This document shows, piece after piece, positions 20,323 to 37,625 of a DNA stretch of 64,000 nucleotides. The DNA is from Posidoniimonas corsicana. Its GTDB lineage: Bacteria; Planctomycetota; Planctomycetia; Pirellulales; Lacipirellulaceae. Under the pieces are notes generated by a model. That model searched no databases, was not told the origin of the DNA, and worked only from the letters and a program-made list of their open reading frames with translations. How positions within the stretch are numbered: the stretch's first letter is position 1; the number at the start of each line of letters is the position of its first letter. The position numbers were made by a program, and so were the translations under genes. The stretch is taken from assembly GCF_007859765.1 (NCBI RefSeq), contig NZ_SIHJ01000003.1, positions 62,001 through 126,000 on the forward strand. The letters run 5' to 3'.

Positions 20323-20394
20323 ACCCTTAGCCGCATATCATTATCGCCACATCGAACCGTCCTGACTTCCACCTCTCCCCATCCCCCTTCCCCA

Positions 20395-21390
20395 ATGTTT
20401 GTCGACCGCGTCCAGATCGAAGTCCAAGCCGGCCGCGGCGGTGATGGCTGCATGAGCTTCCGCCGCGAGAAGTACGTGCCCCGCGGCGGGCCCGATGGGG
20501 GCGACGGCGGCAACGGCGGCAGCATCATCGTGCAGGCGCAGGACGGCGTCGACAGCCTCAACTCGCTAGTGCACAAGAAGCACTGGAAGGCCCGCTCCGG
20601 CGTGCACGGCCAGGGCAGCACCCGGCACGGCGCCAACGCCGAGGACATGATCATCACCGTCCCGCCCGGCACCGTGGTGCGCGACGAGCAGCACGACCTG
20701 GTGCTCAAGGACCTATCCCAGGCGGGCGACTCGGTGGTCGCCGCCCGCGGCGGCAAGGGGGGCAAGGGCAACTGCCGCTTCAAGAGCTCCACCAACCAGG
20801 CGCCGCGCGAGTTCACCCGCGGCGAGGAGGGCGAGCACCGCCTGCTGACGTTCGAGCTGAAGGTGATCGCCGACATCGGCCTGCTAGGCAAGCCGAACGC
20901 CGGCAAGAGCACGCTGCTGAGCCGCGTCAGCCGCGCCCGGCCGGAGATCGCCGACTACCCGTTCACCACCAAGAAGCCCAACCTGGGCATCGTGCAGGTC
21001 GACCTGGACCGCTCGTTCGTGATGGCCGACATCCCCGGCCTGATCGAGGGCGCCGCCGCCGGCGCGGGGCTGGGTCACGAGTTCCTCCGCCACGTCGAAC
21101 GCACCCGCGTGCTGATCCACCTGGTCGAGCCGACGCCGGTCGACGGCACCGACCCGACCGAGAACTACCGCGCCATCCGCCAGGAGGTCGAGCAGTACGA
21201 CACCGACCTCGCCGGCCGGCCGGAGATTATCGCGGTCAGCAAGGCCGAGCTGCCCGACGCCGCCGCGGTCCGCGACCTGCTGGCCGAAGAGACCGGCAAG
21301 GAGGTGATCCTGTTCTCCTCGGTCACCGGTCAGAACCTCGACAAGCTGCTCGCGCGGGCGTTCGCGGTGCTGCAGGAAGAACGCGAGTAG
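20395..21390 (+). CDS. obg: GTPase Obg/CgtA
   Basis: 331 residues. The glycine-rich Obg domain fills about residues 1-157 ([51 protein letters not shown]). The G domain has G1 GKPNAGKST, the switch I region [13 protein letters not shown]3 [20 protein letters not shown], and a G4-like SKAEL. It ends near residue 331 without the long acidic C-terminus of the E. coli protein. Obg is an essential 50S-associated GTPase acting in ribosome assembly and stress responses. It keeps its usual vicinity to rpmA, but a small gene intervenes. Confidence 0.97.
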
Positions 21391-21689
21391 GGCGCCCAGA
21401 CTTTGGCCGAAGGCCATGTTCACCGTAGTCTAGGGCCCCACCCTAGACCGGCTTCGTGGCTCACCCCAGCTGGCTGAAGGCCGAAATCAACGCGACCGCG
21501 GCCGGCTGAGTCTGGACTTCAGCCAAACCTTTCACATCGCTCGAAGTGATTTAGCGGCTGCGGCTGCTATGCAAGTCTGAACCCAAGGGACACTTCAGCC
21601 CCCACATGGGCTCCGCCTTGCCCCTCTGCCCATGACCCCGCGAGATGCTGACACGCGAAGCGGAAGAGCTTGATGAGCGCTGGCAGCGA
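21391..21689. other. Intergenic stretch without a recognised gene
   Basis: About 300 nt between obg and a convergent small membrane protein gene. A short hairpin-like TTGGCCGAAGGCCA begins just after the obg stop. Nothing else is identifiable. Confidence 0.5.
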
Positions 21690-22163
21690 TCAATCCTGCG
21701 CCGCATGTTCGCCTCCGACAGGAGAAAAGCACAGCTCCTTGCTGGCCGTCTGGTCGATGATCTGCCGCTTCACATGCGAGTAGACGATCAGCATTGAAAC
21801 GCACATGCAGAGTAAAAGAGCCCCTGCAACAACCGCCATGAACAGGGCTTCAACCGAGTAGGGTGTGCCGACAGCGCCATTGAGCATGCTGGCTATTAGC
21901 GGAATGCACCCGATGCACGCGAGGACGGATGCGACCTGCCCAACTGTGAGGCAAAAAACCTGAAACGCTACGAATCTCGAAACCGTTAACTGCGGATACT
22001 TTGCCAGCTCTGTTGATTCGATATCGGACGGTATGGCGACGATGTCATTTACAGTAAGCCCTTTGCTTTCTGCTTCTTCCCGAGCCGCCTGCTCAGACGC
22101 AGCACGGCTCACTAGTGTTTCCTCACCATTCACGTTGTCGCGAACAATTACCCAGTACGCCAT
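21690..22163 (-). CDS. Small two-helix membrane protein, unknown function
   Basis: 157 residues. The N-terminal 55 residues are soluble (MAYWVIVRDNVNGEETLVSR, then an Ala/Glu-rich helix with QAAREEAESKG), and two long hydrophobic segments follow (about residues 62-92 and 100-128) with several Cys. The tail is cytoplasmic and charged. Base composition is much lower in GC than its neighbours, consistent with a recently acquired gene. It converges on obg and lies 235 nt from the ketoacyl synthase gene. No family was recognised. Confidence 0.55.
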   Translation of the reverse strand: MAYWVIVRDNVNGEETLVSRAASEQAAREEAESKGLTVNDIVAIPSDIESTELAKYPQLTVSRFVAFQVFCLTVGQVASVLACIGCIPLIASMLNGAVGTPYSVEALFMAVVAGALLLCMCVSMLIVYSHVKRQIIDQTASKELCFSPVGGEHAAQD

Positions 22164-22398
22164 TGCTTCAACTGCCTATCGTGAGTGATGGACGCGGTGT
22201 TGTTGTGACACACTTAAGTGCGATCCGGGCTGTAACGTCTGGCGACCGCGGTGGCGAACAGACGCGCTGATAGGCTCACAGTAGTCACGATGGGCAGGGC
22301 ATGGAAGCCGCAGCGAGCAACGCCTTGCGAAGCATCTGGCCGGAAAGACTCCGACGCCTTTCTGGGGACTCCAGCGACAATATTGACGTTGGCGTCCG

Positions 22399-23661
22399 CT
22401 ACCCGGCCACCAGCACGGTCGCCACGGCCTGGCCCATCAGGTTGTAGTTGAGCTTCAGCACGGCCCGCTTGTCGGTGGGCGTCAGCTCGGCCGCGACGTT
22501 CACCGGGCAGTTGGGGTCGGGCGTCTGGAAGTTGAGCGTCGGCGGGACTACGCCGCGCTCCAGCGCGGCGAGCGTCATCGCCAGCTCGACCGAACCGCCC
22601 GACGCGCCGGTGTTGCCGATGAACGACTTGGGCGCCGTAACCGGCGCGTCGCCCACGGTGGCGCGGAGTGCCTGGGCCTCGACCTGGTCTTGCTCCACCG
22701 AGCCGCCCGAGTGGGCGCTGACGAACGCCAGCTCTTCGGGAGTGATACCGGCCTGCTGCAGGGCGGCCTCAACCGCGTTGCGGATGGCGGCGCCGGCCGG
22801 CGGGCGACCGGGCAGCACCGCCTCGTTGCGAACCGCGACCGAAGCCACGCGGGCGATCGGCCGCACGCCGCGGCGTCGGGCGTGGTCCTCGTTCTCCAGC
22901 ACCACCACCGCGGCGCCCTCGCCACACACGGCGCCGGTCCGGCCCTTGTCGAACGGGCGGCAGGCCTCGGCCGGTTCGACGCCTGCGGACCAGGCCGCGG
23001 CGCCCTCGCGCCACAGCGGGTCGAGCTGGTTGAGCCGGCTGCTGCTGGCGCCGATGAACATCAGGTCGGTCGCGCCGCGGGCGATCATCGAATCGGCCTC
23101 GGCCAGGGCCATCAGGCTCGAGGCGTCGCCGTGCGCGATGGTGTTGGTGGGGCCGCGGGCGTCGCGGCGGATGCCGGTGTGGCAGGCCGACATGTTGGGC
23201 AGGTACTTGAGCATCCACAGCGGGAACAGCTCGCGCATGCCGGCCGGGCCCCACTGCTCGTAGTCGAACTCGCCGTTCTCCTTCAGGCACGCCTGATACG
23301 ACGGCTCCAGCTCCTCCGGCGGGCAGTACATCAGCCCGGCGCCGAACACCACGCCCATCCGCTCGGGGTCGACCGGGGTGTCCTCCAACCCGGCGTGGTC
23401 CCAGGCCTGTTCCCCGGCGGCGAAGGCGAGCTGGATTTCGCGGGCCATCACCTTGAGGCTCTTGCGCGGCTTGACCCACTGCTTGGGGTCAAAGTCCTCT
23501 TCACAGATGATCCCGCCGAACGGCGCGGGCCAGTCGGTGGCGGCCATCCGCTCGTGGACGCGCACGCCGGATCGGCGCTGGTCGATCGCCGACCAGACCT
23601 CTTCGCGCCCCACGCCAATGGGGCACGCGACTCCAAACCCTGTGATGACAACGTTTTGCAA
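22399..23661 (-). CDS. Beta-ketoacyl synthase (FabF/KAS II-like) with Cys-His-Asn active-site pattern
   Basis: A 420-residue thiolase-fold protein of FabB/FabF type (VVITGFGVACPIG at the N-terminus, GEGAAVVVLE, TLNFQTPDPNCPVN and LKLNYNLMGQ near the C-terminus). The nucleophile Cys is present in NMSACHTGI. The first catalytic His is in VSAHSGGSVEQDQVEA. The second, normally in the GHxxGAAG motif, is replaced by Asn in KSFIGNTGASGGS. A Cys-His-Asn set is what KAS III enzymes use, so chain extension or priming chemistry may differ. The start is TTG at 23661, since no ATG lies in frame near the motif. It is divergent from a fatty acid desaturase, suggesting joint work on acyl chains. Confidence 0.82.
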   Translation of the reverse strand: MQNVVITGFGVACPIGVGREEVWSAIDQRRSGVRVHERMAATDWPAPFGGIICEEDFDPKQWVKPRKSLKVMAREIQLAFAAGEQAWDHAGLEDTPVDPERMGVVFGAGLMYCPPEELEPSYQACLKENGEFDYEQWGPAGMRELFPLWMLKYLPNMSACHTGIRRDARGPTNTIAHGDASSLMALAEADSMIARGATDLMFIGASSSRLNQLDPLWREGAAAWSAGVEPAEACRPFDKGRTGAVCGEGAAVVVLENEDHARRRGVRPIARVASVAVRNEAVLPGRPPAGAAIRNAVEAALQQAGITPEELAFVSAHSGGSVEQDQVEAQALRATVGDAPVTAPKSFIGNTGASGGSVELAMTLAALERGVVPPTLNFQTPDPNCPVNVAAELTPTDKRAVLKLNYNLMGQAVATVLVAG

Positions 23662-23948
23662 GGACCAATCACCCCGTGCCGGCAGTCGAAAGAACGGCTC
23701 TGGACGCCGAGAAACTCCTCACGCCCAGAGCGCGGAGCCCGCCTACTCAGGTCATCGGGATCTGGCCGCCCGACCTGAAACGGGGCTCGCGGAGCGCCGA
23801 CGATTCGCGTCGGGCCCGACAAGGCGATTGCGCAGTTTAGCCAGCCGCCCGCATCGTCTCTAGCCTCCCAGGCGTTGAATCCGGCGCCCCCCGGTGCGTA
23901 CTCTGAAGGGAACAGGCTAAGGGCTCTAGGCAGTTTAGGACGATTCCA

Positions 23949-25196
23949 ATGAAGCGTCGAACCGCACTCCGCCAGAACCCGAACGGTCAGACCAACATGC
24001 AGCTCCCCCAGACAGGCACGGCCGCGTGGCCGACCGAGGGCGCGGTGGTCGTGCCGCCGCGAACCGGCCGCCCGACCCCCGAACGCGAGCCCCAAGCCGA
24101 GCCGCAGCCACAGCGCCCAGCCGCCGGCCCGGGGTTCTCGCTGGCCCAGGCGCGGACGATAGTCGGCCAGCGGTTCCAGCCGAAGCCGTGGATCTACTGG
24201 ACCGACCTGCTGGCGAGCTGGGCGGTCGGGATGCTCGCGTACCAGCTGGTCTGCCAGCCGACGATCGGCTGGGGCGAGGCCGCCGTGACGCTCGGCTGGC
24301 CGGCGCGGGTCGCGTGCTTCTTCCTGTCCAGCATGCTGATCTACCGCTGCGGGCTGTTCATCCACGAGCTGACGCACATCCCGGAGGGCCAGTTCGTCGC
24401 GTTCCGCAAGGCGTGGAACCTGATGTGTGGGATCCCGTTCCTGATCCCGTCGTTCGTGTACCTGACGCACGTCGACCACCACCGGCGGCGGCACTACGGC
24501 ACCCAGCACGACGGCGAGTACCTGCCGCTGTCGCACCGCTCGCCCTGGCACATCGTGGGCTACCTGGCGCAGAGCCTGATCATCCCGGTCCTGGCGGTGG
24601 TCCGGTTCGGCGTGCTGACGCCGCTGACCTGGTTCAACACGCCGCTCCGCCGGTGGGTGATGACCCACGCGTCGAGCATGGTGATCGACCCCACGTACCT
24701 GCGCCCGTACCCGACCGCCAAGGCGCTGCGGCTGATCCGCCGGCAAGAAGCGCTCACCTTCCTGTACATTGTGGCGGCCGCCGTGCTGCTGTACCGCGGC
24801 GCCTTCCACGACGGCGTGGTGAGCCCGTGGGTGCTGCTGCAGGCGTACCTGACCGGCGTGTTCGTGGTGACGGTCAACGCGGTGCGGACGCTCGGCGCCC
24901 ACCGCTGGCACAACGACCAGCACGACGAGATGACCTTCGTCGAGCAGATGGTCGACAGCGTCACGTACGACAATCCTCGCTCGCTGCCGTGGCTGTGGGC
25001 GCCGGTGGGGCTCCGCTACCACGCGCTGCACCACATCTTCCCGTCCATGCCGTACCACGCGATGGGCGCCGCGCACCGGCGTCTGATGGCCGAGCTCCCG
25101 GCCGACTCGCCGTACCGGCTGACGGTCGCCAAGTCGCTGTGGGACGAACTGTCCGGCCTGTGGCGCCGCGCCGCCGAGAGCCGCCAAGCCGCCTAG
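23949..25196 (+). CDS. Membrane fatty acid desaturase
   Basis: 415 residues. A Pro/Gln-rich leader of about 65 residues is followed by a membrane-bound desaturase domain. The histidine boxes are present: HELTH (box 1), HVDHHRRRHYG (box 2), and RYHALHHIFPS (box 3), with an additional RTLGAHRWHN. Hydrophobic segments separate the boxes (IYWTDLLASWAVGMLAYQLV, ARVACFFLSSMLIY, IVGYLAQSLIIPVLAVVRFG, LTFLYIVAAAVLL). It would bind a di-iron centre and introduce double bonds or hydroxyl groups into acyl chains or carotenoid-like lipids. A long open frame in +2 (24026-25357) is only a shadow. Divergent from the ketoacyl synthase across 287 nt. Confidence 0.88.
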   Translation: MKRRTALRQNPNGQTNMQLPQTGTAAWPTEGAVVVPPRTGRPTPEREPQAEPQPQRPAAGPGFSLAQARTIVGQRFQPKPWIYWTDLLASWAVGMLAYQLVCQPTIGWGEAAVTLGWPARVACFFLSSMLIYRCGLFIHELTHIPEGQFVAFRKAWNLMCGIPFLIPSFVYLTHVDHHRRRHYGTQHDGEYLPLSHRSPWHIVGYLAQSLIIPVLAVVRFGVLTPLTWFNTPLRRWVMTHASSMVIDPTYLRPYPTAKALRLIRRQEALTFLYIVAAAVLLYRGAFHDGVVSPWVLLQAYLTGVFVVTVNAVRTLGAHRWHNDQHDEMTFVEQMVDSVTYDNPRSLPWLWAPVGLRYHALHHIFPSMPYHAMGAAHRRLMAELPADSPYRLTVAKSLWDELSGLWRRAAESRQAA

Positions 25197-25247
25197 CCCA
25201 CACGGCCCTCGATCGTCCGCGCTACCGCCACGCCAACCGCAACCCGA

Positions 25248-25337
25248 CGCGTAAGCGAGGGCGCTCCACGGAGCGGATCGAGTGGCGTCGAGAAGGGGCG
25301 AAACCGCGTCGGTCGATGAAGCCGGTGCTGGTTTTCC
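25248..25337 (+). repeat. Dispersed structured repeat R, copy 1
   Basis: Begins with the GCGTAAGCGAGGG motif, passes through GAGAAGGGGCGAAAC, and ends in a stem-loop with loop TCGATGAAG at the tip (left arm CCGCGTCGG, right arm CCGGTGCTGG). It is related to copies at 26231, 28321 and 30448, all in the same orientation. It fills most of the 296-nt gap before the DUF4303-like gene. Confidence 0.7.
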
Positions 25338-25492
25338 GAGAGCCAGTGACCTCCTAAGAGGGGTCACACCTTTGTACTCACCGAACTCTGTTAGAATGCG
25401 TCGAACCAGGTGAAGCCAAGTTGAGTCGCCGGTGCCCTGAGAAGGCTTGTTGGCAGTTCGTGAAGTGCAACGCGAAGTCGATCGACATTCGA

Positions 25493-26065
25493 ATGGCCGC
25501 ACCACCCTCCTATGATCATCTGAGCGATGAAGTCGCCGCCGCTCTGGCAGCTCACTACTGTCAGTGGGTCGCTGAGCACCCCACAGACGACATCTATGCT
25601 TACGTGGTATACGCGACTTCCCTCGTGTCGACGATCGCAGTCTCGGTATTGACCGAACAGGGCCTCAAGCAGGTTGCTTCTGAATACAAGACCAAGCACG
25701 GGTACGATGAACCGCTTGATCAGCTGGAACGCGATCTCCGATGGTCCGTAGCAGATACCCCATATTGTGGGGACTTACAGGAGGTTTTCGAGTCAGTCAA
25801 CGAGCGGCTTCACTCTATGGTCGCCTACGTCGATGCGCTGGATGTCGAAGACCCCGCTTTCTCGACGCATATTGACACGCTTTACGACACCCTTGTTGTC
25901 GCATTGAATCAAGTTCGGCACAGACAGTTAAAGGATGAAGTCCGACCTTTGCTCTACGTCGATTTCGGCGACATGAGCGACGAGGAACGGCTCTGGTTCA
26001 TCAGACAGTGCAATGCCCCGAACGTAGTTGAATGGTATCGGTCATCAATCGAACCAGCGGGCTAA
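25493..26065 (+). CDS. DUF4303-like protein
   Basis: 190 residues from the ATG at 25493. The order of features fits DUF4303: a helical start (LSDEVAAALAAHYCQWVAEH), a central strand IYAYVVYATSLVSTIAVSVL, then a DLRWSVADTPYCGDLQEVF segment and an amphipathic C-terminal half. The function of the family is unknown; small proteins of this kind often occur in accessory loci. Lower GC than the flanking housekeeping genes. It is the first gene of the repeat-delimited island, lying between repeat copies R1 and R2. The assignment rests on memory of the family pattern only. Confidence 0.6.
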   Translation: MAAPPSYDHLSDEVAAALAAHYCQWVAEHPTDDIYAYVVYATSLVSTIAVSVLTEQGLKQVASEYKTKHGYDEPLDQLERDLRWSVADTPYCGDLQEVFESVNERLHSMVAYVDALDVEDPAFSTHIDTLYDTLVVALNQVRHRQLKDEVRPLLYVDFGDMSDEERLWFIRQCNAPNVVEWYRSSIEPAG

Positions 26066-26125
26066 TAAGGTCACGGAATTCATCAGCTGCGAGACATCGA
26101 CGCTAATTCGGTCCATCCGTTCGCG

Positions 26126-26173
26126 TGCACAGGTGGCGTCGCCCTTGGTCGCGAATCTGCACCAGCGTGAGAC
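26126..26173 (+). repeat. Dispersed repeat module T, copy 1
   Basis: 48 nt beginning TGCACAGGTGGCGTCGCCCT, matching 31347-31394 at 39 of 48 positions in the same orientation. It lies between the DUF4303-like gene and repeat R2. Confidence 0.6.
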
Positions 26174-26230
26174 ACCGGCCCCCGGTACTATGGCCCACCG
26201 AATCTGAACAGGGACCGTCGATTTTCAATG

Positions 26231-26361
26231 CGCCGGGTGCCACTGGCTATGCCAGTGCTTCAAGTGTCGATGCGCGTTCCCTAAACTGCACTGGCCGAGC
26301 CAGTGGCAACCGGCGTAGAGAACCCGCGAAACCGCACCGGTCGATGAAGCCGGTGCGGCTG
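26231..26361 (+). repeat. Dispersed structured repeat R, copy 2
   Basis: Three successive hairpins: CACTGGC-TAT-GCCAGTG, CACTGGC-CGA-GCCAGTG, and a perfect 9-bp stem CCGCACCGG / CCGGTGCGG (26332-26340 with 26350-26358) closed by the 9-nt loop TCGATGAAG. It occupies most of the 476-nt gap 26066-26541 together with module T. Confidence 0.75.
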
Positions 26362-26541
26362 GCGCATTGAACCTCCTGCCACTAGCGTGGGTCATTCCCA
26401 AAGGACAGTTGGTGCTAGACTGAGCCCATCCGTCCCCGTTCGGCGAGAGAGAACGCTCTAGCGATGAGACTTGCCATCGGGCGGCTGGCGCCCGGAATGG
26501 GCAAGGACTTGGCGATGACACAACTAGAACGAGGTAGATCG

Positions 26542-27153
26542 ATGCGCACTCCCCACCGCGTTTTTTCCCTAGCGACGCTAGCCGTTGTGCTTTGTCTGTC
26601 GCCGAAGTTCCTGCTCCAGGCTCAGGCGCCGAAGGTATCGATTGGCGATGCGGCCAAGCTGTCCGAACTCAAGCTGTTTTCCGCGGCCTATGGGTACGAC
26701 ACGGAGTATTTGGAGGCGCTGCTCGCCAAAGCACCCGGCGCCTACCGGGCTATCGAACCGGCTCAGGAGATGTCGTCGTACCGTAAGGACCTGCCGCTCG
26801 ATGCTCACTACGTCGCGCGGATAGCCACCATGCAGGTCGAGGATTGCGGTCCCTGCACGCAGCTCAACCTCCGGATGGCGATCGAGGCGGGCGTCGAACA
26901 CGAGCTGCTCGATACCTTGATTCAGAGCCCAGAGAAGCTGCCCCAGCCGCTTCAGGATATCCGTAACCACGCCCGAGCCGTGACCGGCGCCGGAGAGCTT
27001 GACCCGGCGTGCGTCGACCGGCTCCGTGCCCACTACGGCGAGGGCGCGTTCTTAGAACTCGCGGTGGTGATCACCGGCAGCCGGATCTATCCAACCCTCA
27101 AACGAGCGATGCTCAAGAACGAGAGCTGCATTCTTGGCGACTTGAAGTACTGA
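26542..27153 (+). CDS. Exported carboxymuconolactone decarboxylase / AhpD-like protein
   Basis: 203 residues from the ATG at 26542, preceded by a GAGG Shine-Dalgarno. An N-terminal signal-like segment (RVFSLATLAVVLCLSPKFLL, then QAQA) precedes a helical domain of the AhpD/CMD type. The segment VEDCGPCTQLNLRMAIEAGV carries the CxxC pair and the downstream helix typical of alkylhydroperoxidase-like proteins, though the usual His after the second Cys is not obvious. A peroxidase- or thiol-related role outside the cytoplasm is an inference. It lies inside the repeat island, between repeat R2 and the hydrolase pseudogene. Confidence 0.7.
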   Translation: MRTPHRVFSLATLAVVLCLSPKFLLQAQAPKVSIGDAAKLSELKLFSAAYGYDTEYLEALLAKAPGAYRAIEPAQEMSSYRKDLPLDAHYVARIATMQVEDCGPCTQLNLRMAIEAGVEHELLDTLIQSPEKLPQPLQDIRNHARAVTGAGELDPACVDRLRAHYGEGAFLELAVVITGSRIYPTLKRAMLKNESCILGDLKY

Positions 27154-27222
27154 GTCAGACGGGAAGAAATGGGGCCTAGCCAGCCTAGGGGCGGGTGTCG
27201 CTAGAGACGGCCCACAGCTGCT

Positions 27223-28169
27223 TCACTTCATGTATTTCTCGAAGAACGACAGCACCTTCTCGGGGTGCCGCCCGAAGTGGTTGTAGCCGTCCTTGAACCG
27301 GTGCGGCGTGTTCTCGATCCAGAACAGCTCCTTCTCCTCGCTGCCGAGCAGATCGAACGTCCGCTGCGCGTCTTCCGGGTTCCGGGTCCAGGCGTCTTCC
27401 AGCACCTGGACCATCAGCACCGGCATCTTCACGCTAGCCGCCCAGTGGTGCGGCGTCATCTCGGCCGCGACGAAGCCGCCCATATTCAGCAGCTCCAGGT
27501 CGATGAGTTCCTGGTACTACCGGATGCCCTGGAGCTCGGAGAAGGCGTCGTAGATCGCCGACATCGAGACTACCATCGGGCTGCACATGCAGGCGACGTT
27601 CTCGAACAGCTCCGGGTAGCGGTGGATCGCGTGGTACTGCGAGTTGCCTCCCATGCACTGGCTGTAGAGTCCGACCCGCATCTTGGACAGCTGCGGGTGG
27701 CTGTCGACGTACTTCTTCACGCCCACGCAATCACGCCACTCCCAACACCCGATGCCGCTCAGCCCGCCGTTCGCGGCGCCGCTGTTCCCGTGGTTGCGGA
27801 TGTCGTAGGTCAGCACGTTGTACCCGGCGTCGGTCAGGTGCTTGTACTGGATGACGAAGTCGATCTCCACCGCGTCGAAGCCGCTCCAGGGCTCGCCAAG
27901 GTGCCCCGGGAACCCCGCCCGGCACATGGGCAGCGCGTGATTGAAGACGATCAACTTGTCGCTCTCACCCCCTTGGCGGGGATGTACCACGCTTCCAGGG
28001 GCGTGCCGTCATCCGAAGCGATGTAGAGGTCGTGCCACCCGGTCATGCCGTAGTCGTCGGGCGTCTTGTGGAGCACGCTGCGGAGCGGCCGGACGATGTT
28101 CGCGAGCCCCTTGACCTTGGCGTGGTCCTCTGGGGAGATGGTCTCGAGCTGCTGCAGGGCTTTGTCCAT
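27223..28169 (-). pseudogene. Alpha/beta hydrolase pseudogene (frameshift plus internal stop)
   Basis: Three consecutive minus-strand fragments together make one alpha/beta hydrolase of about 315 residues. The first fragment ends AWYIPAKG and the next resumes ESDKLIVFNHAL in another frame. Continuity needs one extra base in the C-run at 27968-27972. A second lesion is an in-frame TAG at 27517-27519, where a CAG-to-TAG transition would explain the break in ELQGIR-stop-YQELIDLELL. The elements of the fold remain (YDIRNHGNSG, nucleophile-elbow-like LYSQCMGGNSQY, ending NHFGRHPEKVLSFFEKYMK). The nucleophile position is Cys in the S-Q-C-M-G elbow. Two independent lesions argue for real decay rather than a single sequencing error. 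Convergent with the AhpD-like gene. Confidence 0.8.
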
Positions 28170-28268
28170 CCGCTGCTGGCGTACGGCGTCGCGCGTCGAT
28201 TCTACCGGTACCGCCGCGGTGACGCAGCCACCGGCCGGCCTGTTTGCTGGGCGCCGCACCGGTCGTTC

Positions 28269-28293
28269 TCACGGCGGGGACCGCCGTGCTACA
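28269..28293. repeat. Short palindromic repeat, CACGGCGG-GGA-CCGCCGTG
   Basis: An 8-bp stem CACGGCGG / CCGCCGTG with loop GGA. The 25 nt are identical to 32167-32191 at the other end of the island. Confidence 0.7.
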
Positions 28294-28320
28294 GAGGTGG
28301 GAGGACCCGCTCCTGCCGCC

Positions 28321-28485
28321 AGGCGCCGCTGGCTACGCCAGTGCTTTAAGAGTCGACGCGCGTCCTTCAAACCGCACTGGCCAAGCCAGTGGCGCCCGGC
28401 GTAAGCGATGGCGTTCCACGGATCAAATCCAGTTGCCGTAGAGAAGGGGCGAAACTGCGTGGGACGATGAATCCTGTGCAGGTTG
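28321..28485 (+). repeat. Dispersed structured repeat R, copy 3 (longest)
   Basis: Starts with the paired CACTGGC-type hairpins, continues with CCCGGCGTAAGCGATGG, and ends with GAAACTGCG, the loop ACGATGAAT and CCTGTGCAGG. The 66 nt at 28395-28460 are identical to 30477-30542. Together with the 28269 palindrome it fills the gap between the hydrolase pseudogene and the Clp_N gene. Confidence 0.8.
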
Positions 28486-28586
28486 GGAATTCCTATTTTC
28501 GCTCGCTACGACCGAATACAATGCCGCTAAGTGGCTCAGACGAGCCCCAACGGCAGTTTCGATACACTTGACCACGAGGCTTTGTG

Positions 28587-29033
28587 ATGGTCGTTCTTCC
28601 ATTCTCGGAGCCCGCACGAAAAACGATGCGATACGCAAGCCAGGAGGCCTTGCGACTTAAGCACGAGTACATCGGGACAGAACACATCCTACTGGGACTT
28701 ATTAGAGAGGAAAGTGGCGTCACTCCTGATATGCTGAACAAGGTTGGTCGTGACCTCGGCAAAGTACAAGCGGAGGTCGAAAACTGGGTATTGGCAGGGG
28801 CAGAAGAAGTCACAAAGTGTCGTCTCCCCCGAACCCAAAGAGCAGACAAAGTCTTGAACTATGCGGACAAGGAGGCCCAGAGCTCTGGCTGCGATTTTGT
28901 AGAGGCGGAACACATTCTCTTGGGGCTGTTACGGGAGCCGCACGGAGTAGCTCATTGCGTACTGGTCGGACTAGGACTTAGCGTCGACAACGTACGTGAT
29001 GAGGTAGCAACCATTCTTCGCAACCGCAGGTGA
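28587..29033 (+). CDS. Stand-alone double Clp N-terminal domain protein
   Basis: 148 residues made up of two Clp_N repeats and nothing else. The first is FSEPARKTMRYASQEALRLK with HEYIGTEHILLGLIREESGV. The second is ADKVLNYADKEAQSSGCDFV with EAEHILLGLLREPHGVAHCV. This is the ClpC/ClpA substrate- and adaptor-binding domain without any AAA+ module, so it cannot unfold protein itself. It could compete for, or recruit, adaptors and arginine-phosphorylated or other substrates of the cell's ClpC; this is inference. The start is ATG at 28587 (a GTG lies one codon upstream), with GAGG about 9 nt ahead. It lies between repeat R3 and an S-like repeat. Confidence 0.88.
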   Translation: MVVLPFSEPARKTMRYASQEALRLKHEYIGTEHILLGLIREESGVTPDMLNKVGRDLGKVQAEVENWVLAGAEEVTKCRLPRTQRADKVLNYADKEAQSSGCDFVEAEHILLGLLREPHGVAHCVLVGLGLSVDNVRDEVATILRNRR

Positions 29034-29071
29034 CACCTACCCGCGAGCTGGCTGGAGCCAAAACGCACCGG

Positions 29072-29110
29072 CGTGATACTCCTACGCAGGCAACACCTCC
29101 ACGCAGCCGC
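29072..29110 (+). repeat. Degenerate copy of repeat module S
   Basis: The segment CTCCTACGCAGGCAAC and flanking bases match the start of the S repeats at 29781 and 31388 but lose similarity afterwards. Confidence 0.4.
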
Positions 29111-29189
29111 TTGAGCTCTCTCGCATTCTGCCGGCCACCGCAAACGCCGCCTACGGCCCCCAACCACACCCCGAAAACTGCCCCCTCCT

Positions 29190-29222
29190 AACCTGCACAG
29201 GATTCATCGTCCTGTGCAGGTT
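29190..29222. repeat. Perfect 12-bp stem-loop with 9-nt loop
   Basis: AACCTGCACAGG (29190-29201) pairs perfectly with CCTGTGCAGGTT (29211-29222). The loop ATTCATCGT is the reverse complement of the ACGATGAAT loop of repeat R3, so this is an inverted copy of the same hairpin. There is no T-tract. It lies just upstream of the promoter-like TACAAT for the next gene. Confidence 0.75.
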
Positions 29223-29228
29223 AGAGCG

Positions 29229-29237
29229 TGATACAAT
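29229..29237 (+). promoter_or_regulatory. Extended -10 promoter element, likely leaderless start
   Basis: TGATACAAT matches an extended -10 (TGnTAnAAT) and ends 5 nt before the ATG at 29243. It overlaps the alternative GTG at 29228, which favours the later start codon. Confidence 0.5.
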
Positions 29238-29242
29238 ACGGC

Positions 29243-29761
29243 ATGCAATCGCCCACCCCAAATGAAATTGGACTAGCAGAGGCCCTCGCTGTCGCTGAGG
29301 GTCGAGTGATGCCAACCCTGAATGAAGGCGACGCGAAGATGCTCGCGTTGATTCTTCAAGACGGCGAATGCACAGCCGAGATTTCGGACTCCGCGTTTTC
29401 GGTACAGTACTCGTGGCTACGGAAATTGCGTCCGTCGACCTACTTCAAGAGTCTGGCACCGGGGGTCGTTGGGCGTCTAATGCAGCTAGGGGGCGTGGAC
29501 GGCATAGATGGCGAAGCAACTTTCCGAGTAGGCCCGGGCTCAACGGGCACTGGGCGGTATGTATTTGACTTTGACCAGAAATGGGTTCGCATTCGCCGGG
29601 AACAAGAGCGGATCCTCATTCTTGTTCGTGACAATCGTAAAGGCTTGAACGAGAAAGTCCCACAGCCTTCCTATGAGGAAGCTCGCTGCGGACGCTGCAA
29701 CGGGGTTTTGCGAACGCCCCTTGCCAAGCAATGCCTCAATTGCGGCTACGATTGGCACTAG
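29243..29761 (+). CDS. Zinc-ribbon-tailed protein of unknown function
   Basis: 172 residues from the ATG at 29243 (a GTG at 29228 is in frame but falls in the promoter-like sequence). The body is mixed alpha/beta with a helical N-terminus (GLAEALAVAEGRV), a WLRKLRPSTYFKSLAPGV segment and a strand region ending ILILVRDNRKG. The C-terminus is a compact zinc ribbon, CGRCNGVLR then CLNCGYDWH, at about residues 145-172. No named family was recognised. Lower GC than the genome. It is bounded on both sides by island repeats (29190-29222 and S1). Confidence 0.6.
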   Translation: MQSPTPNEIGLAEALAVAEGRVMPTLNEGDAKMLALILQDGECTAEISDSAFSVQYSWLRKLRPSTYFKSLAPGVVGRLMQLGGVDGIDGEATFRVGPGSTGTGRYVFDFDQKWVRIRREQERILILVRDNRKGLNEKVPQPSYEEARCGRCNGVLRTPLAKQCLNCGYDWH

Positions 29762-29780
29762 GCGTTCTAGCTGCGTCGAA

Positions 29781-29873
29781 GTGAAACTCCTACGCAGGCA
29801 ACGCCTCACGCCTAGCCACCCCCAACGCCGCATCGAGGGCGCCAGCCCCCAACCTGCACAGGTCGATGACGCC
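29781..29873 (+). repeat. Dispersed repeat S, copy 1
   Basis: 93 nt beginning GTGAAACTCCTACGCAGG and ending near the loop TCGATGACG. They match 31388-31480 at 89 of 93 positions in the same orientation. It fills the gap between the zinc-ribbon gene and the DUF695-like gene on the other strand. Confidence 0.8.
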
Positions 29874-29888
29874 GACGCAGCCAAGAAC

Positions 29889-30359
29889 TTACGTGTGGCC
29901 GCCTCGCGCTGCATTCAGGTGCCACGCCGCCAACTCCCATTCTGGATCATTCTCGATGCGGTAGTCGAACGGTCGCGGCTGTGTTTTCTCGGCAATCATA
30001 TTACTCAGGTACGCGTGAGGCGGCGTGGGTTCGTAAACACGATAAATCAGTTCTCTTGTTCGATTCCACGTAATCCTCGCTAGAAACAACGCGTTCGGCT
30101 TCTTTAAATCGCCGCCCTTAAAGACTGAATCCAGAGCATCTCCGAATGGATCGACAATCTCTCGTTCTGCTTCCGATGGCATCCCATTCTCGATGAGGTC
30201 TTCGAAGATGACCATTAGTGACAGATGCCAAGCGAACACCGCTTTCGGTTCGAAATCGCACAGCGACTCATTGATCACGCCAATCCCGGGTAGGTCGTTC
30301 TGTACAAACTCGACTAGCTGGTAGTTTTCCTTCGGAATGCTCACGCGGTAGTCGGTCAT
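29889..30359 (-). CDS. DUF695-like protein
   Basis: 156 residues from the ATG at 30359. The C-terminal segment RPFDYRIENDPEWELAAW fits the end of DUF695, a family of unknown function found in diverse bacteria. The preceding part (YRVSIPKENYQLVEFVQNDL, FAWHLSLMVIFEDLIENGMP) is mixed alpha/beta. An earlier in-frame start at 30404 adds 15 residues without support. Lower GC than flanking housekeeping genes. It is oriented opposite to most island genes and lies between repeats S1 and R4. Confidence 0.55.
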   Translation of the reverse strand: MTDYRVSIPKENYQLVEFVQNDLPGIGVINESLCDFEPKAVFAWHLSLMVIFEDLIENGMPSEAEREIVDPFGDALDSVFKGGDLKKPNALFLARITWNRTRELIYRVYEPTPPHAYLSNMIAEKTQPRPFDYRIENDPEWELAAWHLNAARGGHT

Positions 30360-30447
30360 GGATAGCAATTCCCGTGAAAGTGCGAATCGATAAAATCCTG
30401 TCAACTGCCTATGGTCCGACCCATTTCTGCGGCGTTTGGAGATGGTC

Positions 30448-30568
30448 GCCGGGCGCCACTGGCCTAGCCAGTGGGGCCCGGCGTAAGCGATGGCGTTCCA
30501 CGGATCAAATCCAGTTGCCGTAGAGAAGGGGCGAAACTGCGTCGGACGATGAAGCCTGCGCAGTTTCG
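30448..30568 (+). repeat. Dispersed structured repeat R, copy 4
   Basis: Contains the CACTGGC-CTA-GCCAGTG hairpin and the 66-nt block identical to copy 3 (30477-30542). It ends with the stem GAAACTGCG / CGCAGTTTC around GTCGG, the loop ACGATGAAG and CC. It fills the gap between two minus-strand island genes. Confidence 0.8.
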
Positions 30569-30607
30569 GCTCGCGAGTTCCTGGACAAGCATGTCACTCC
30601 GTTCTGC

Positions 30608-31258
30608 TTACGCTAAAGGATAGGCCGTCTGCTCAACGGCACTCCGCAGGCGATGCACTGGAGCGTCCTCGTTTAGCTGCTGAAGCTGGGCGACAGACAC
30701 TGGCTTGTGGCCGAATACGTGAGCGACAATAAGGGTATCGACCTCAACGTTGTAATTGCATGCGAGCCACTCCGCAAACCCATCTACGCCCAAGAGTAGT
30801 CTCGACAATAACTCAGTTGAACCATCTGGGTCTTTGCCTTCTGGGTAGTCGATGTCCCCTGTTTCCCACTGAGCTTCACCAGATAATCGCCAAACAACGA
30901 AGGTAGTGTTTGGCATGTCAAACGCTGGTTCATTAAGCGAGGACTGGAAATCAATCGGAACATTGTCGAGAAGCTTTGGCCACAATGCGGGAGGATGAGT
31001 GCGATGCGGCGTCATCGCCGTTTCGTGACCGAAGCCCTTGATAAAGCACCCAGCGCTAGTGAAGTGGACGAACAACTCATCCCCCGAGCCATTCTTCACA
31101 GCTCCAACCTGCTGGTGCTTCGTCCACATTGGATAGTAGGCGAAATTCGGCTCGCCGTATTCGATGTCGAATACGGCTGTCAGTGCGGCCATCTCCTGCA
31201 TACGCAGTCGAAGGTCGGCCGGGCTCGGTAGTTCTGCTAGGTTGCGAGTGGATATCAT
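30608..31258 (-). CDS. Accessory protein of unknown function (island gene)
   Basis: 216 residues from the ATG at 31258; the frame is open to 31351 without a better start. Recognisable stretches include SPADLRLRMQEMAALTAVF, FAYYPMWTKHQQVGAVKNGS, GSGDELFVHFTSAGCFIKGF, and NTTFVVWRLSGEAQWETGDI. This pattern (a GSGDxxFxxF strand followed by a GFxHE segment) recurs in small bacterial proteins of unassigned function that I associate with accessory, possibly immunity-type loci, but I cannot name the family. Lower GC than the chromosome. It lies between repeats R4 and T2/S2. Confidence 0.55.
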   Translation of the reverse strand: MISTRNLAELPSPADLRLRMQEMAALTAVFDIEYGEPNFAYYPMWTKHQQVGAVKNGSGDELFVHFTSAGCFIKGFGHETAMTPHRTHPPALWPKLLDNVPIDFQSSLNEPAFDMPNTTFVVWRLSGEAQWETGDIDYPEGKDPDGSTELLSRLLLGVDGFAEWLACNYNVEVDTLIVAHVFGHKPVSVAQLQQLNEDAPVHRLRSAVEQTAYPLA

Positions 31259-31346
31259 GACAATCGACTTGGTTATGATGTATCTGTAGCCTATCGCGTG
31301 CTGCCGCGACATGGAACTTCGGCCATGATTTCGAGGCTTGCTATCC

Positions 31347-31394
31347 TGCACAAGCGGCGTCGCCCTGGGTTACGAATTTGCACCGGAGTGAAAC
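31347..31394 (+). repeat. Dispersed repeat module T, copy 2
   Basis: 48 nt matching 26126-26173 at 39 positions. Here it runs directly into repeat S copy 2, which shows that the modules combine. Confidence 0.6.
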
Positions 31395-31485
31395 TCCTAC
31401 GCAGGGAACGCCTCACGCCTAGCCACCCCCAACGCCGCATCGAGGTCGCCAGCCCCCGACCTGCACAGGTCGATGAAGCCTGTGC
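31388..31485 (+). repeat. Dispersed repeat S, copy 2
   Basis: Nearly identical to copy 1 over 93 nt, ending in the hairpin GCACAGG / CCTGTGC (31463-31469 with 31479-31485) around loop TCGATGAAG. With module T it fills most of the 309-nt gap 31259-31567. Confidence 0.8.
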
Positions 31486-31567
31486 GCGTTTGCACCTCCC
31501 GCGTCTGACGACGGCCCAGCGTCATAGAATTAAAGTACGGCGACCCCCTAGCTGTTTTCAACCGACC

Positions 31568-32038
31568 ATGAGCATCACTGTCGAGTACCTATTCAATTCC
31601 GCCCTCGCGTTTGACTCGCTCGTAGACCTACTCAATGACAAGCTAGGCCTCTGCTTCGCTCCGTACAATGGAGACTCGGCGGACCAATACTGCCGACTCC
31701 TCGGAATGGAATTGTCGCTTCACAGCTGCCATGGCTTGGTAAACGATGGCGAATGCAGATTTGAGGACTACGCGTATCAGATTGAAACACGGACGCCTGT
31801 TTGCGATGGAGACCTTCGTGTGGTTCAAGTCGAGTTAATGGCAATGCTTGCGTACACCATGCATCGACGCCTAAATGTGCTGTCCGGTCTCCTGACCTTT
31901 GATGTTCAGTGTGCTCTTGCCCGCTACCGGACGACAGAAACCGGTTGGTATGATGAGCTCTCCTGCTCGCCAGTCACCTTCCCCCAACACTTGGTCACAA
32001 TTCGAGACAGAATCACACGTGCGGGCTGGGAAGCCTAA
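31568..32038 (+). CDS. Small acidic protein of unknown function (island gene)
   Basis: 156 residues from the ATG at 31568; upstream the frame only translates repeats. The N-terminus (SITVEYLFNSALAFDSLVDL) and the segments GLCFAPYNGDSADQYCRLLG, GECRFEDYAYQIETRTP and VQVELMAMLAYTMHRRLNVL suggest an alpha/beta fold with a long central helix. No family was recognised. It is the last gene of the island, followed two nt after its stop codon by a hairpin of the island repeat type. Its GC is clearly lower than that of the CBS and ABC-F genes that follow. Confidence 0.55.
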   Translation: MSITVEYLFNSALAFDSLVDLLNDKLGLCFAPYNGDSADQYCRLLGMELSLHSCHGLVNDGECRFEDYAYQIETRTPVCDGDLRVVQVELMAMLAYTMHRRLNVLSGLLTFDVQCALARYRTTETGWYDELSCSPVTFPQHLVTIRDRITRAGWEA

Positions 32039-32039
32039 C

Positions 32040-32066
32040 TTGCACAGGATTGAAACTCCTGCGCAA
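32040..32066. repeat. Island-type hairpin after the last island gene
   Basis: TTGCACAGG (32040-32048) and CCTGCGCAA (32058-32066) pair at 8 of 9 positions around the 9-nt loop ATTGAAACT. The architecture is the same as in the other island hairpins. Confidence 0.5.
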
Positions 32067-32166
32067 CGGGCAGCACCAACATTCGCCCGATCGATGCTTG
32101 CCGGCTGGTGCACCTTGGAGCGGGCGCAGATCACTGCCACACTTCGCTCAGGCCCGACCGGCTGGC

Positions 32167-32191
32167 CTCACGGCGGGGACCGCCGTGCTAC
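32167..32191. repeat. Short palindromic repeat, second copy
   Basis: 25 nt identical to 28269-28293, with stem CACGGCGG / CCGCCGTG. It marks the right end of the island just before the CBS gene stop. Confidence 0.7.
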
Positions 32192-32221
32192 CGAGGAGAG
32201 GTGGGCGGAGCCGCCCCACGG

Positions 32222-32608
32222 CTACACGAACTGCGCGAGGTAGTTGACCAGGTCGGTCCGTGACACGATGCCGACCACCTCGGCGCCGCTCACCACCGGG
32301 GCGCGCTGGACTTTGGTCTCGCGGAACAGCTCGGCGATGCTCTCGATCGAGTCGTCCTCGGACACCGTGACCGACTCCTTGGTCATGTGGCGGGCCACCG
32401 GCGAGTCCATCACGCCGGGGTCGGTGAACGCGGTCAGCAGGTCGTACTGCGAGACCATGCCCTGCAGGAACCCGGCCGAGTCGATCACCGGCAGGCCCGC
32501 CAGCTCGTGGTGGGCCAACAGGGCGATCGCCTCGCGCATGGTGGCGGTGTCGTGCACGCCACGCACGGTGCGGCTCATGAGGTCTTTGGCGGTCGCCATG
32601 CTGGGCAT
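32222..32608 (-). CDS. Tandem CBS-domain protein
   Basis: 128 residues made up of a CBS pair. CBS1 covers about residues 8-60 (DLMSRTVRGVHDTATMREAI, GLPVIDSAGFLQGMVSQYDL). CBS2 covers about 72-128 (HMTKESVTVSEDDSIESIAE, RAPVVSGAEVVGIVSRTDLV). Such stand-alone CBS pairs bind adenine nucleotides or related ligands and act as energy or ligand sensors; no partner can be named here. Two in-frame ATGs three codons apart (32608 and 32599) are both possible starts. It lies 131 nt downstream of the ABC-F gene on the same strand. Confidence 0.88.
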   Translation of the reverse strand: MPSMATAKDLMSRTVRGVHDTATMREAIALLAHHELAGLPVIDSAGFLQGMVSQYDLLTAFTDPGVMDSPVARHMTKESVTVSEDDSIESIAELFRETKVQRAPVVSGAEVVGIVSRTDLVNYLAQFV

Positions 32609-32739
32609 CCTGATTCACGGGGGGCGGGTCGGCGGCGTCCCCTCCGCTGGCGGGGGCACGCTGCAAGCCTAGCCTGCCGCCCGCCGCGGCGCGGCCGCTG
32701 ACGGGAATCCGTCGGCGGGGCGGCGGCCTCTGCCGGTAA

Positions 32740-34533
<1,794 letters not shown>

Positions 34534-34839
34534 TCGAAAGGGGAAATGGGAAAGGCGAAAGGGGGGTCGTGGAAGGCGGTGTCGGCTGTTGGTCGCTACC
34601 GGTTTGTTACTGAAACCGGCCACCCCGCGCGGTCAAATGGGGGTGCGTTTCTTGGTGTACCTAAGGCCGGCGGGTGGGGGGACCGCTGCGCGCGGTAGGT
34701 GCGGGGCGGATCTTCGGAGGCCGGTGTCCGATCGGCGCGCCCAAAAACGGACAAAACCCCCGCCGCCCCGTGGGGAGCGAATCAATGTAACGGCATTATC
34801 TCAAAGCACTTACAGAAAAACAGGGCGGAAATACGCCCC

Positions 34840-34892
34840 GAGTTTTGTCCCCTCCGCGCGTGTTTTTGGACAATACGAATCGGACAAAACTC
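34840..34892. repeat. Inverted repeat, GAGTTTTGTCC arms
   Basis: GAGTTTTGTCC (34840-34850) pairs perfectly with GGACAAAACTC (34882-34892) over a 31-nt loop, and a further CGGACAAAAC lies at about 34746. It shares the TTTTGTCC core with the repeats at 3376-3537. It is part of the 509-nt gene-free stretch 34534-35042. Confidence 0.65.
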
Positions 34893-34926
34893 CCCCCAGA
34901 GCCGCGCAGGGGGTGCGCTAGGGTGG

Positions 34927-35014
34927 CGGGGGCGCTCCGCGGCAGCGGAAGCCCCCGCGGGTTACGGACAGCCGGCTGGTACGTCGCCGGGGCTTCCCTG
35001 CGAGAGCGCCCCCG
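34927..35014. repeat. Nested 88-nt palindromic element
   Basis: Three nested inverted repeats share a centre near 34972: CGGGGGCGCTC (34927-34937) with GAGCGCCCCCG (35004-35014), GGAAGCCCC (34947-34955) with GGGGCTTCC (34989-34997), and the central CAGCCGGCTG (34969-34978). It lies just downstream of the ROK kinase stop and could fold into one long branched hairpin. Confidence 0.7.
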
Positions 35015-35042
35015 GCGCCCCCGCTTTGGGGTCACGTCGCCC

Positions 35043-36092
35043 TTAAGGCAGCACCCAGGCCAGCGCGCCGATGACCGGCGCGGCGTCGCCGCAGACGGAG
35101 AACTCCAGCCGGTCGAGGTTGCGGAAGCCATCGAGCGCGTGCTCGCGGTACGACTCCTCGGCGGTCAGCCGGTAGCGGTCGCGGAGGTCGGACACCAGGT
35201 CGCACACGCCGCCGCCGATCACCAGGCGGTCGTAGTCGCCCAGGTAGTTGACGCTCAGCATCGCCAGGCCGAGCGCGCGGGCCTGGTCGTCGAACAGCTG
35301 CACGGCCAACGGGTCGCCGCCGGCGGCCAGCTCGCGGAGCTGCTTGGCCTTGTCCTTGGCGGTGCCGGACGCGGCGTTCAGCGGGTGGTCGGCCCACTCG
35401 GTGAGCGACAGCCGGTACTCGAGCTGGTGGGTGAGCGCGGTGAGCGAAACGGCCGACTCGGCCGTGGACATTGCGTTGCCGACCTGGAGCTGGCGGTCGT
35501 GCTCGTAGCGGAACGCGTACTCCGGCAGCAGGATGTGGCCCACGTGGCCCGCCCGGCCCTCCTTGCCGCGGAGCGGGTTGCCCTCGACCACGGCGCCGCC
35601 GCCGAAGCCGGTGCCGACGATCACCATGAACAGCGAGTGCAGGTCCTCGGCGGGGAGCTGGTTGGCGGGCGCGCCGTCCCAGCTTAGCGAGCGGTTGCGG
35701 ATGGCGAACTCGCCGAGCGCGGCGGCCTGGCCGTCGCCGATGTAGCAGACCTCCAGCCGCGTAGTGACGGCGCGGTACGCCTCCTCCAGCCGCTCGCGGA
35801 TGGGGAAGCGGTCCCACTGCTTGGGGTCGAGGTTGGGCGTCTTGAGGAGCACGCCGTCCTGCGTGGCGGGGCCGGGCGTGGCGAGGCCAACGAACGGCAC
35901 GTCCTCCAGCGTGGCGCCCAGCTTGTCCAGCTCGAGCGACGACTGCCGGACGATCGCCGCGATCACGGCGGCCGGCCCGTCCTGGGGCGCGGTGGGGAAC
36001 TGCTCGCTCACCGCCACGACGTTGCGCTGCTCGTCGCCGATGGCGAGGGTGCTGGTGGTGCCGCCGATATCGACGCCGATAAAGTAAGTCAT
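35043..36092 (-). CDS. ROK family sugar kinase (glucokinase-like)
   Basis: 349 residues from the ATG at 36092. The N-terminal phosphate motif is FIGVDIGGTTSTLAIGD, FVGLATPGPA carries the region before the catalytic site, and VIVGTGFGGGAVV with GEF/GKEGRAGHVGHI form the ROK core. The C-terminus RLVIGGGVCDL is the adenosine motif. The zinc-binding CxCGxxGCxE motif normally found after GH is missing; the segment reads PEYAFRYEHDRQLQVGNA instead. The likely reaction is ATP-dependent phosphorylation of glucose or a related hexose, but metal-free ROK proteins can have other substrates. It stands alone between two gene-poor stretches. Confidence 0.82.
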   Translation of the reverse strand: MTYFIGVDIGGTTSTLAIGDEQRNVVAVSEQFPTAPQDGPAAVIAAIVRQSSLELDKLGATLEDVPFVGLATPGPATQDGVLLKTPNLDPKQWDRFPIRERLEEAYRAVTTRLEVCYIGDGQAAALGEFAIRNRSLSWDGAPANQLPAEDLHSLFMVIVGTGFGGGAVVEGNPLRGKEGRAGHVGHILLPEYAFRYEHDRQLQVGNAMSTAESAVSLTALTHQLEYRLSLTEWADHPLNAASGTAKDKAKQLRELAAGGDPLAVQLFDDQARALGLAMLSVNYLGDYDRLVIGGGVCDLVSDLRDRYRLTAEESYREHALDGFRNLDRLEFSVCGDAAPVIGALAWVLP

Positions 36093-36196
36093 CAAGGGCT
36101 GCCTGCCACGGCCGGGGAGGAACGCCGGCCGACCTGAAAGGGGGGAAAGAGCGAGAGGCCGTCAGTATCGCGGCCGCCGCCCCGCGATGCAATCGC

Positions 36197-37528: not shown

Positions 37529-37625
37529 ACGGCGGTAAATAGGAAATCCGCCGTCGGCCGTCAATGCGGAGCGGGGTGGGGTGCCAGCACCGTCGACGAA
37601 CACCCTGTCTGGGTGATTCGTGGTG

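Follow-up and report, generated by a model that had tools for sequence, protein, structure and literature searches.

Paired palindromic sites frame small accessory genes in Posidoniimonas corsicana: a candidate family of mobile gene cassettes

We analysed 64,000 nucleotides of the planctomycete Posidoniimonas corsicana (hereafter the window; G000:C3:62001-126000 of its 6.77-Mb genome, G000), in which a 7-kb island of short genes lies between the stop codon of a fatty-acid desaturase gene (25196; Pfam E 4.1e-20) and a CBS-domain gene (32222-32608). Two palindromic sites, here called LE and RE, recur in this island and form a dispersed family of ordered, same-strand pairs in the genus. Our preferred reading, with a probability of about 0.6, is that the island is made up of about seven non-autonomous mobile gene cassettes in tandem, framed by LE and RE, each unit consisting of LE, usually one small low-GC gene in either orientation, and then RE.

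The initial annotation had described a lower-GC island with repeats (R, S, T, palindromes, and hairpins) at its gene junctions, and both observations are borne out. GC content is 0.585 in the island versus 0.701 in the adjoining 2.5 kb and 0.714 in the adjoining 5 kb; a comparable dip (0.58) occurs elsewhere in the window, at 21500-22499. Copies of R lie at 25283, 26311, 28434, and 30516, with the hairpin part of R at 26231, 28317, and 30447. S (29772 and 31379; 102 nt, 93%), T (26126 and 31347; 51 nt, 80%), and a palindrome (28253 and 32152; 45 nt, 84%) each occur twice, and further hairpins lie at 29187 and 32034. These repeats are not explained by chance: the 26-nt core of R, allowing ≤ 3 mismatches, matched four times in the window versus never in 100 shuffles. 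An Rfam scan of 20000-38000 gave five low matches, none overlapping the repeats.

Aligned copies reduce the repeats to two 25-bp palindromic sites, in which 8-bp inverted repeats flank a 9-nt centre: LE (TGCRCAGG-ACGATGAAK-CCKGYGCA), positioned left of a cargo gene, and RE (TGCRCCGG-CGTGAAACK-CCKRCGCA), positioned right of it. LE is the terminal part of R and S, T leads into RE, and S consists of RE, ∼57 nt, and LE, an arrangement also present outside the window (L062 and L065). The half-site TGCRYMGG recurs inverted in the arms of both sites around a conserved asymmetric centre, an arrangement to be expected both of a dimeric recombinase site and of a hairpin recognised in single-stranded form. 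Across 27 aligned copies, the outer (left) side of LE is not conserved, and ∼110 nt on its inner side are common to many. Pair counts in the LE stem, from copies collected with a pattern that already allowed R/Y pairs, reveal no strong covariation. The additional hairpin of R (CACTGGC..GCCAGTG) is a palindrome distinct from these sites, scattered over nine places in the genome, four of them in the island.

Other readings of these repeats were set aside. A consensus fold of four S copies can be drawn as a single hairpin resembling attC, the integron cassette site, but single copies fold differently (z -1.9 to +0.9) and any RE-LE pair would permit such a fold, so this reading was dropped; hammerhead, CRISPR-repeat, and repetitive extragenic palindrome (REP) readings of the loops were dropped as well.

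Covariance models of the two sites identified seven LE (E ≤ 1.5e-7) and five RE (E ≤ 1.2e-4) in the window, every match inside the island (Table 1). The models were partly built on window copies (7 of 30 LE rows and 5 of 26 RE rows), and a held-out test therefore used simple profiles from copies outside the window only, themselves gathered with patterns derived from the window repeats. The held-out LE profile scored the seven LE at 24.5-41.4 bits, a backwards-read RE at 23.6, and the best other window site at 16.8, with a maximum of 15.9 bits on six shuffled windows. With the RE profile, four of the five RE reached 30.5-36.3 bits and the one at 26158 just 15.5, close to a backwards-read LE (15.2); shuffles reached at most 12.4. 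The initial annotation had placed all R, S, and T copies in the same orientation, and this holds for every site except one, the hairpin at 29194-29218, which is a minus-strand LE. The AhpD-like/hydrolase and DUF695 cargo blocks each have an LE and lack a recognisable RE.

Both sites recur well beyond the island. Although a blastn search with R in the P. corsicana genome returned matches confined to the island copies, a 25-nt pattern from the last part of R (≤ 2 mismatches) matched 20 times there and 9 times in the one sister genome compared, that of a related species (G001), with no match of the reversed control in either. The pattern was matched in 8 of 39 genomes; in the 37 other than these two, 11 pattern matches stand against 3 of the reversed control. 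At E ≤ 1 the covariance models gave 32 LE and 35 RE in the P. corsicana genome, and 20 LE and 13 RE in the sister. Pairing was assessed at E ≤ 0.03, which leaves 39 LE (26 and 13, respectively) and 32 RE (24 and 8). A same-strand RE follows within 3 kb downstream for 20 of the 39 LE (6 of these 20 in the island; 14 of 32 outside it), an opposite-strand RE lies near one, and 18 have no RE that near, compared with a chance expectation of ∼0.14 pairs derived from site density with clustering ignored. The resulting units span 0.48-2.8 kb. By their open reading frame (ORF) lists they carry mainly small low-GC genes and some large ones, and among 20 cargo ORFs from units outside the island four Pfam families exceeded the cut-off: UPF0167, alpha-L-fucosidase, DUF7660, and DUF2071. 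Whether copies elsewhere flank other cargo was a check proposed in the initial annotation, and they do.

LE is almost confined to the planctomycete family of the host: at E ≤ 0.001 it was found in 14 of 36 genomes of the family versus 1 of 23 outside, with 22 copies in P. corsicana, 12 in the sister, and 1-3 in each remaining positive genome. Its placement relative to genes is also restricted. Among the 26 of 33 outside-island LE sites examined, 18 lie ≤ 200 nt from a clear core ORF, and 17 of these 18 stand behind its 3' end on the same strand, as does the first LE of the window, behind the desaturase gene; for the 25 with an ORF within 1.5 kb, 20 share its strand and 5 are opposite. Such a constant orientation behind gene ends suggests that insertion is targeted.

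The regions around units hold further repeated sequences. By eye, in both species, the stretch from variable cargo to the following core gene contains a dispersed repeat, a few hundred nt long and with arms TTTTGTCC..GGACAAAA, to the right of RE or of the variable region (L059, L060, L061, L068, L069, L073, and L074). The outer flank of RE at L073, L075, L078, and L079 resembles CACCG.GT.GCA.CGACTTTCGTTCGC, also by eye, and is perhaps another repeat or a preferred target. On the LE side, CTCTGTTAGAATGCGTCGAAC is common to the leaders at 25386-25406 of the window and in the L065 unit (C1:312.9k), perhaps as a promoter.

Comparison with the sister species exposes turnover at these places. At the orthologous site of the island, the desaturase and CBS genes are kept with < 1 kb between them; the 7-kb island is missing, and neither LE nor RE was found there at E ≤ 1. 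The initial annotation took the same genes in the same order in relatives to speak for ordinary intergenic repeats; this is not the case in the one sister genome compared. The sister site itself (G001:C9:250374-250811) holds a PIN-domain gene (Pfam E 9.4e-6) and a small upstream ORF, perhaps a toxin-antitoxin pair. At four other orthologous sites (L059/L072, L068/L073, L061/L074, and L078/L080), both species retain the upstream core gene as far as LE or close to it, and the next 0.8-4.4 kb differ. At a further locus, L069, the left flank is conserved to LE, the sister has no LE there, and the right flank falls outside the 16 kb compared.

Cargo also recurs at different places. A ∼750-bp block occurs, 95% identical, in two loci of the P. 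corsicana genome (on C1 and C2). Relatives of the zinc-ribbon cargo of the island occur at other sites in two other genera (G039, 72%; G023, 68%), with an LE-like sequence upstream of both (19.7 and 22.2 bits; E 0.0056 and 0.0011 over 119 kb), and the AhpD-like cargo has DNA relatives in G039 and G006. The proposal of the initial annotation that the repeats delimit exchangeable cargo is thus supported by dispersed copies that frame other genes, by the lack of the island at the sister's site, by turnover at four sites, and by one cargo present in two loci. In the sister, the LE/RE frames also enclose integron cassettes with attC.

Several results weigh against the mobile-cassette reading. Nearly half of the LE (19 of 39) have no same-strand RE within 3 kb, and the model finds RE in both members for only two of the four orthologous pairs; in each remaining pair, a single member has it. 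The shared ∼750-bp block starts ∼9 nt after LE at one locus; at the other, it is not directly preceded by an LE. Close identity stops 8-9 nt short of RE. Its alignment rules out a complete LE-RE unit; because the boundaries lie just inside LE and RE, the block points instead to exchange of content inside frames. The RE beside the G039 zinc-ribbon homologue is visual only (GGCGTGAACGCC), and none was found in G023. In the flanks of about ten units inspected by eye, 3-nt matches were seen in two, with no consistent target-site duplication. The cargo gave no enzyme: the Pfam search of the 20 cargo ORFs returned no transposase or recombinase. A stretch that starts with LE but lacks RE (L058) contains a fragment resembling a transposase, below the cut-off (HTH_21, E 2.3e-4). 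Four of the 23 tyrosine-recombinase match stretches in the P. corsicana genome lie 5-8 kb from LE or RE in a post hoc comparison (G000:C1:1200597, C1:1458070, C2:569758, and C4:216530), none clearly within a unit, and serve as leads. Movement by a REP-associated tyrosine transposase (RAYT), suggested in the initial annotation, is not shown: the genome has five Y1 (RAYT-type) matches, and their coordinates place all of them outside the listed units, the flanks not having been scanned. No tyrosine recombinase or Y1 match is tied to LE or RE, and no cassette exchange has been observed in action.

Table 1. Sites, cargo genes, and other repeats of the island (window coordinates)
Feature	Position	Strand	Basis
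LE site 1, end of R1, behind desaturase stop (25196)	25305..25329	+	covariance + held-out profile
Cargo 1, DUF4303 protein; longest ORF from TTG 25421	25493..26065	+	Pfam PF14136 E 4.4e-14
RE site 1, end of T1, weak	26158..26182	+	covariance; held-out profile 15.5 bits
R2 upstream hairpin pair CACTGGC..GCCAGTG, separate dispersed palindrome	26231..26317	+	repeat search
LE site 2	26333..26357	+	covariance + held-out profile
Cargo 2, AhpD/CMD-like, marginal	26464..27153	+	Pfam PF02627 E 0.024, below cut-off; DNA relatives in G039, G006
Broken alpha/beta-hydrolase gene, pieces in different frames	27223..28259	-	
Palindrome CACGGCGGGGACCGCCGTG, copy 1	28270..28288	.	repeat search
R3 upstream hairpin pair	28317..28403	+	repeat search
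LE site 3	28456..28480	+	covariance + held-out profile
Cargo 3, stand-alone protein with two Clp_N stretches	28584..29033	+	Pfam PF02861 E 2.3e-29
RE site 2	29064..29088	+	covariance + held-out profile
LE site 4, reversed; core of strong hairpin 29188-29224	29194..29218	-	covariance, folding, held-out profile
Cargo 4, C-terminal zinc-ribbon-like Cys motif (by eye)	29228..29761	+	relatives in two other genera, other sites
RE site 3, start of S1	29772..29796	+	covariance + held-out profile
LE site 5, end of S1	29855..29879	+	covariance + held-out profile
Cargo 5, DUF695 protein; RE not found	29889..30404	-	Pfam PF05117 E 3.8e-7
R4 upstream hairpin	30447..30483	+	repeat search, folding
LE site 6	30538..30562	+	covariance + held-out profile
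Cargo 6, no Pfam, NCBIfam, PADLOC, or PHROGs match; longest ORF	30608..31351	-	
RE site 4, end of T2 / start of S2	31379..31403	+	covariance + held-out profile
LE site 7, end of S2	31462..31486	+	covariance + held-out profile
Cargo 7, unknown protein; stop codon 2 nt ahead of RE	31568..32038	+	weak PADLOC match NsnC E 0.0029
RE site 5	32041..32065	+	covariance + held-out profile
Palindrome CACGGCGGGGACCGCCGTG, copy 2	32169..32187	.	repeat search

The longest ORF of cargo 6 touches T2 at its upstream end, so its true start is probably internal. The broken alpha/beta-hydrolase block has a higher GC content than the other cargo in the island.

The strongest competing explanation, which we nonetheless consider unlikely, is that LE and RE represent the platform flanks (5' and 3', respectively) of scattered small chromosomal integrons, that the units are decayed and resemble clusters of attC sites lacking integron integrases (CALIN), and that the island is a row of adjacent decayed platforms whose attC have eroded. 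Part of the evidence fits it. TIGR02249 (integron integrase, IntI) exceeds the NCBIfam curated cut-off in 5 of 39 genomes, including the sister and G004. The sister has its intI ∼180 nt away from an LE (16.8 bits; E 0.042 over 127 kb), behind a DUF4147/MOFRL-type (glycerate kinase) gene, on a contig that ends before any RE. In G004, the integron lies between an RE-like (partial, 15.9 bits, E 0.24) and an LE-like (21 bits, E 0.0025) end of opposite sense. An attC covariance model (R3), built from 12 sites that include L059, L073, and L080, recovers attC not used for building in G017, the sister, G004, and the P. corsicana unit L064. Cassettes with attC are framed in two P. corsicana units (L059 and L064), and attC occur in sister stretches L073, L080, L081, L071, and L074. 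Eight of the ten attC found by whole-genome search of the sister lie behind an LE in the same stretch; L104 has neither LE nor RE, and L105 has a weak RE (17.3 bits) at a distance of 45 nt. The same search gave one attC in P. corsicana and missed L059, so its sensitivity is limited. Spacing is nearly constant, with the last attC 45-70 nt ahead of RE in six units (RE being weak in two, L081 and L105), and leaders preceding the first cassette look attI-like by eye.

Other results tell against integron flanks. The integrase gene adjoins LE in the sister but RE in G004, both weak sites. In five other attC regions of G004 (L106-L110) and in the G017 integron (L014 and L015), neither site was found at E ≤ 1, so framing is not general to integrons of the family. 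Model R3 found no attC in the window at E ≤ 1, in a search of 38 sources that included it. In the four island units whose gene runs into RE, the gap from stop codon to RE is 92, 30, 10, and 2 nt, and the last three are too short for an attC, whose minimum length is ∼55-60 nt. The island is not an integron array, and its repeats are not attC, to which the initial annotation had likened them; nor did TIGR02249 exceed the cut-off in the P. corsicana genome, where that annotation had proposed looking for IntI, although at ∼95% completeness of the genome this absence is not absolute. The integron analogy fails for the island sites, yet it was a good lead, as the same frames enclose true attC cassettes in relatives.

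Two side results concern attC. L014 in G017 is a chromosomal integron in which seven attC reach E ≤ 3e-5 and a further one is weak; the intI match beside it contains an internal stop codon. A home-made scan for R''/R' motifs gave one match, inside the DUF695 reading frame, and missed known attC; the covariance model was used instead.

Less probable still is that LE and RE are transposon ends of the mobile-insertion-cassette or miniature inverted-repeat transposable element (MITE) type, belonging to a DDE element whose transposase copy is lost or lies elsewhere. The ends do start with TGC and close with GCA as an inverted pair with a common half-site, and inverted end repeats surround many different passengers with no transposase among the 20 scanned cargo ORFs. 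Both ends are palindromes in their own right, however, and differ in their conserved centres; target-site duplication was not seen by eye, and units are inserted with an unusually strict polarity relative to genes. That the sites are ordinary intergenic repeats (terminators, REP-like palindromes, or protein-binding sites) standing by chance around fast-changing genes is already disfavoured and very improbable: LE often lies behind a gene end, many LE lack a nearby same-strand RE, and other palindromes such as CACTGGC..GCCAGTG are scattered too, but LE and RE co-occur in order on one strand (20 versus 1), LE stands at orthologous sites with cargo turnover, and it is nearly restricted to the host's family, mostly at 1-3 copies per genome.

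The cassette reading can be extended, more tentatively and at somewhat less than even odds, to a family-specific system with paired palindromic ends, two fixed centres, fixed polarity behind core-gene 3' ends, and a trans-acting recombinase, which would carry single genes, tandem arrays, and whole integrons without using attC. In the main cassette reading, too, a recombinase supplied in trans would recognise the half-site TGCRYMGG, insert units with fixed polarity behind the 3' ends of genes, and allow cargo to be replaced. Arrays would be built from adjacent insertions joined via the short conserved linkers S and R. Integrons could be one cargo type, or could have left platform flanks behind, and attC may have been lost from the single-gene island units or never been part of them.

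Little is known of the routes by which bacterial chromosomes gain and lose small accessory genes outside classic integrons. The LE/RE pair marks such places and exposes cargo turnover between sister species, and the two covariance models offer a search handle for the cargo pool and the enzyme. The results also suggest a wider framing element around some planctomycete integrons, with a bearing on the dispersal of chromosomal integrons. Searches of one open-licence library listed no paper that, by title or start of abstract, concerns such frames in planctomycetes.

Among known systems, REP/RAYT and IS200/IS605 elements have hairpin ends and dispersed copies, as LE and RE do; the present units differ in the unconserved outer side of LE, in the cargo genes inside, and in having no Y1 match in a listed unit. 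Mobile insertion cassettes (MIC/MICE), MITE-flanked integrons, and integron mobilization units likewise hold passengers or integrons between element ends without a transposase. Both MITE-flanked integrons and mobile insertion cassettes are described in PMC5444012 (citing Poirel 2009 and Gillings 2009), where the MITE has terminal inverted repeats and a target duplication. LE and RE are instead each palindromic, with no consistent duplication seen by eye, and form tandem arrays with conserved linkers. Integron arrays and CALIN, the latter being attC clusters without an integrase (PMC9024848), share with the island a row of small unrelated cargo and a repeated junction site (here seven LE and five RE), and integrase genes are already known from Planctomycetes (PMC2426708). 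The frames in relatives hold true attC cassettes, whereas the island sites are paired 25-bp palindromes distinct from attC, its genes point both ways, and no intI exceeds the cut-off. Modules bounded by dif sites, which are 28 bp long, are moved by an enzyme encoded elsewhere. In Acinetobacter, such (pdif) modules hold adaptive genes between two short recombination sites (PMC6449649). The resemblance lies in cargo between two short sites and an enzyme proposed to act in trans; LE and RE differ in having two distinct fixed centres and in being GC-rich, chromosomal, and placed behind gene 3' ends. Compared with these systems, the LE/RE units are best read as mobile cassettes of a new variety.

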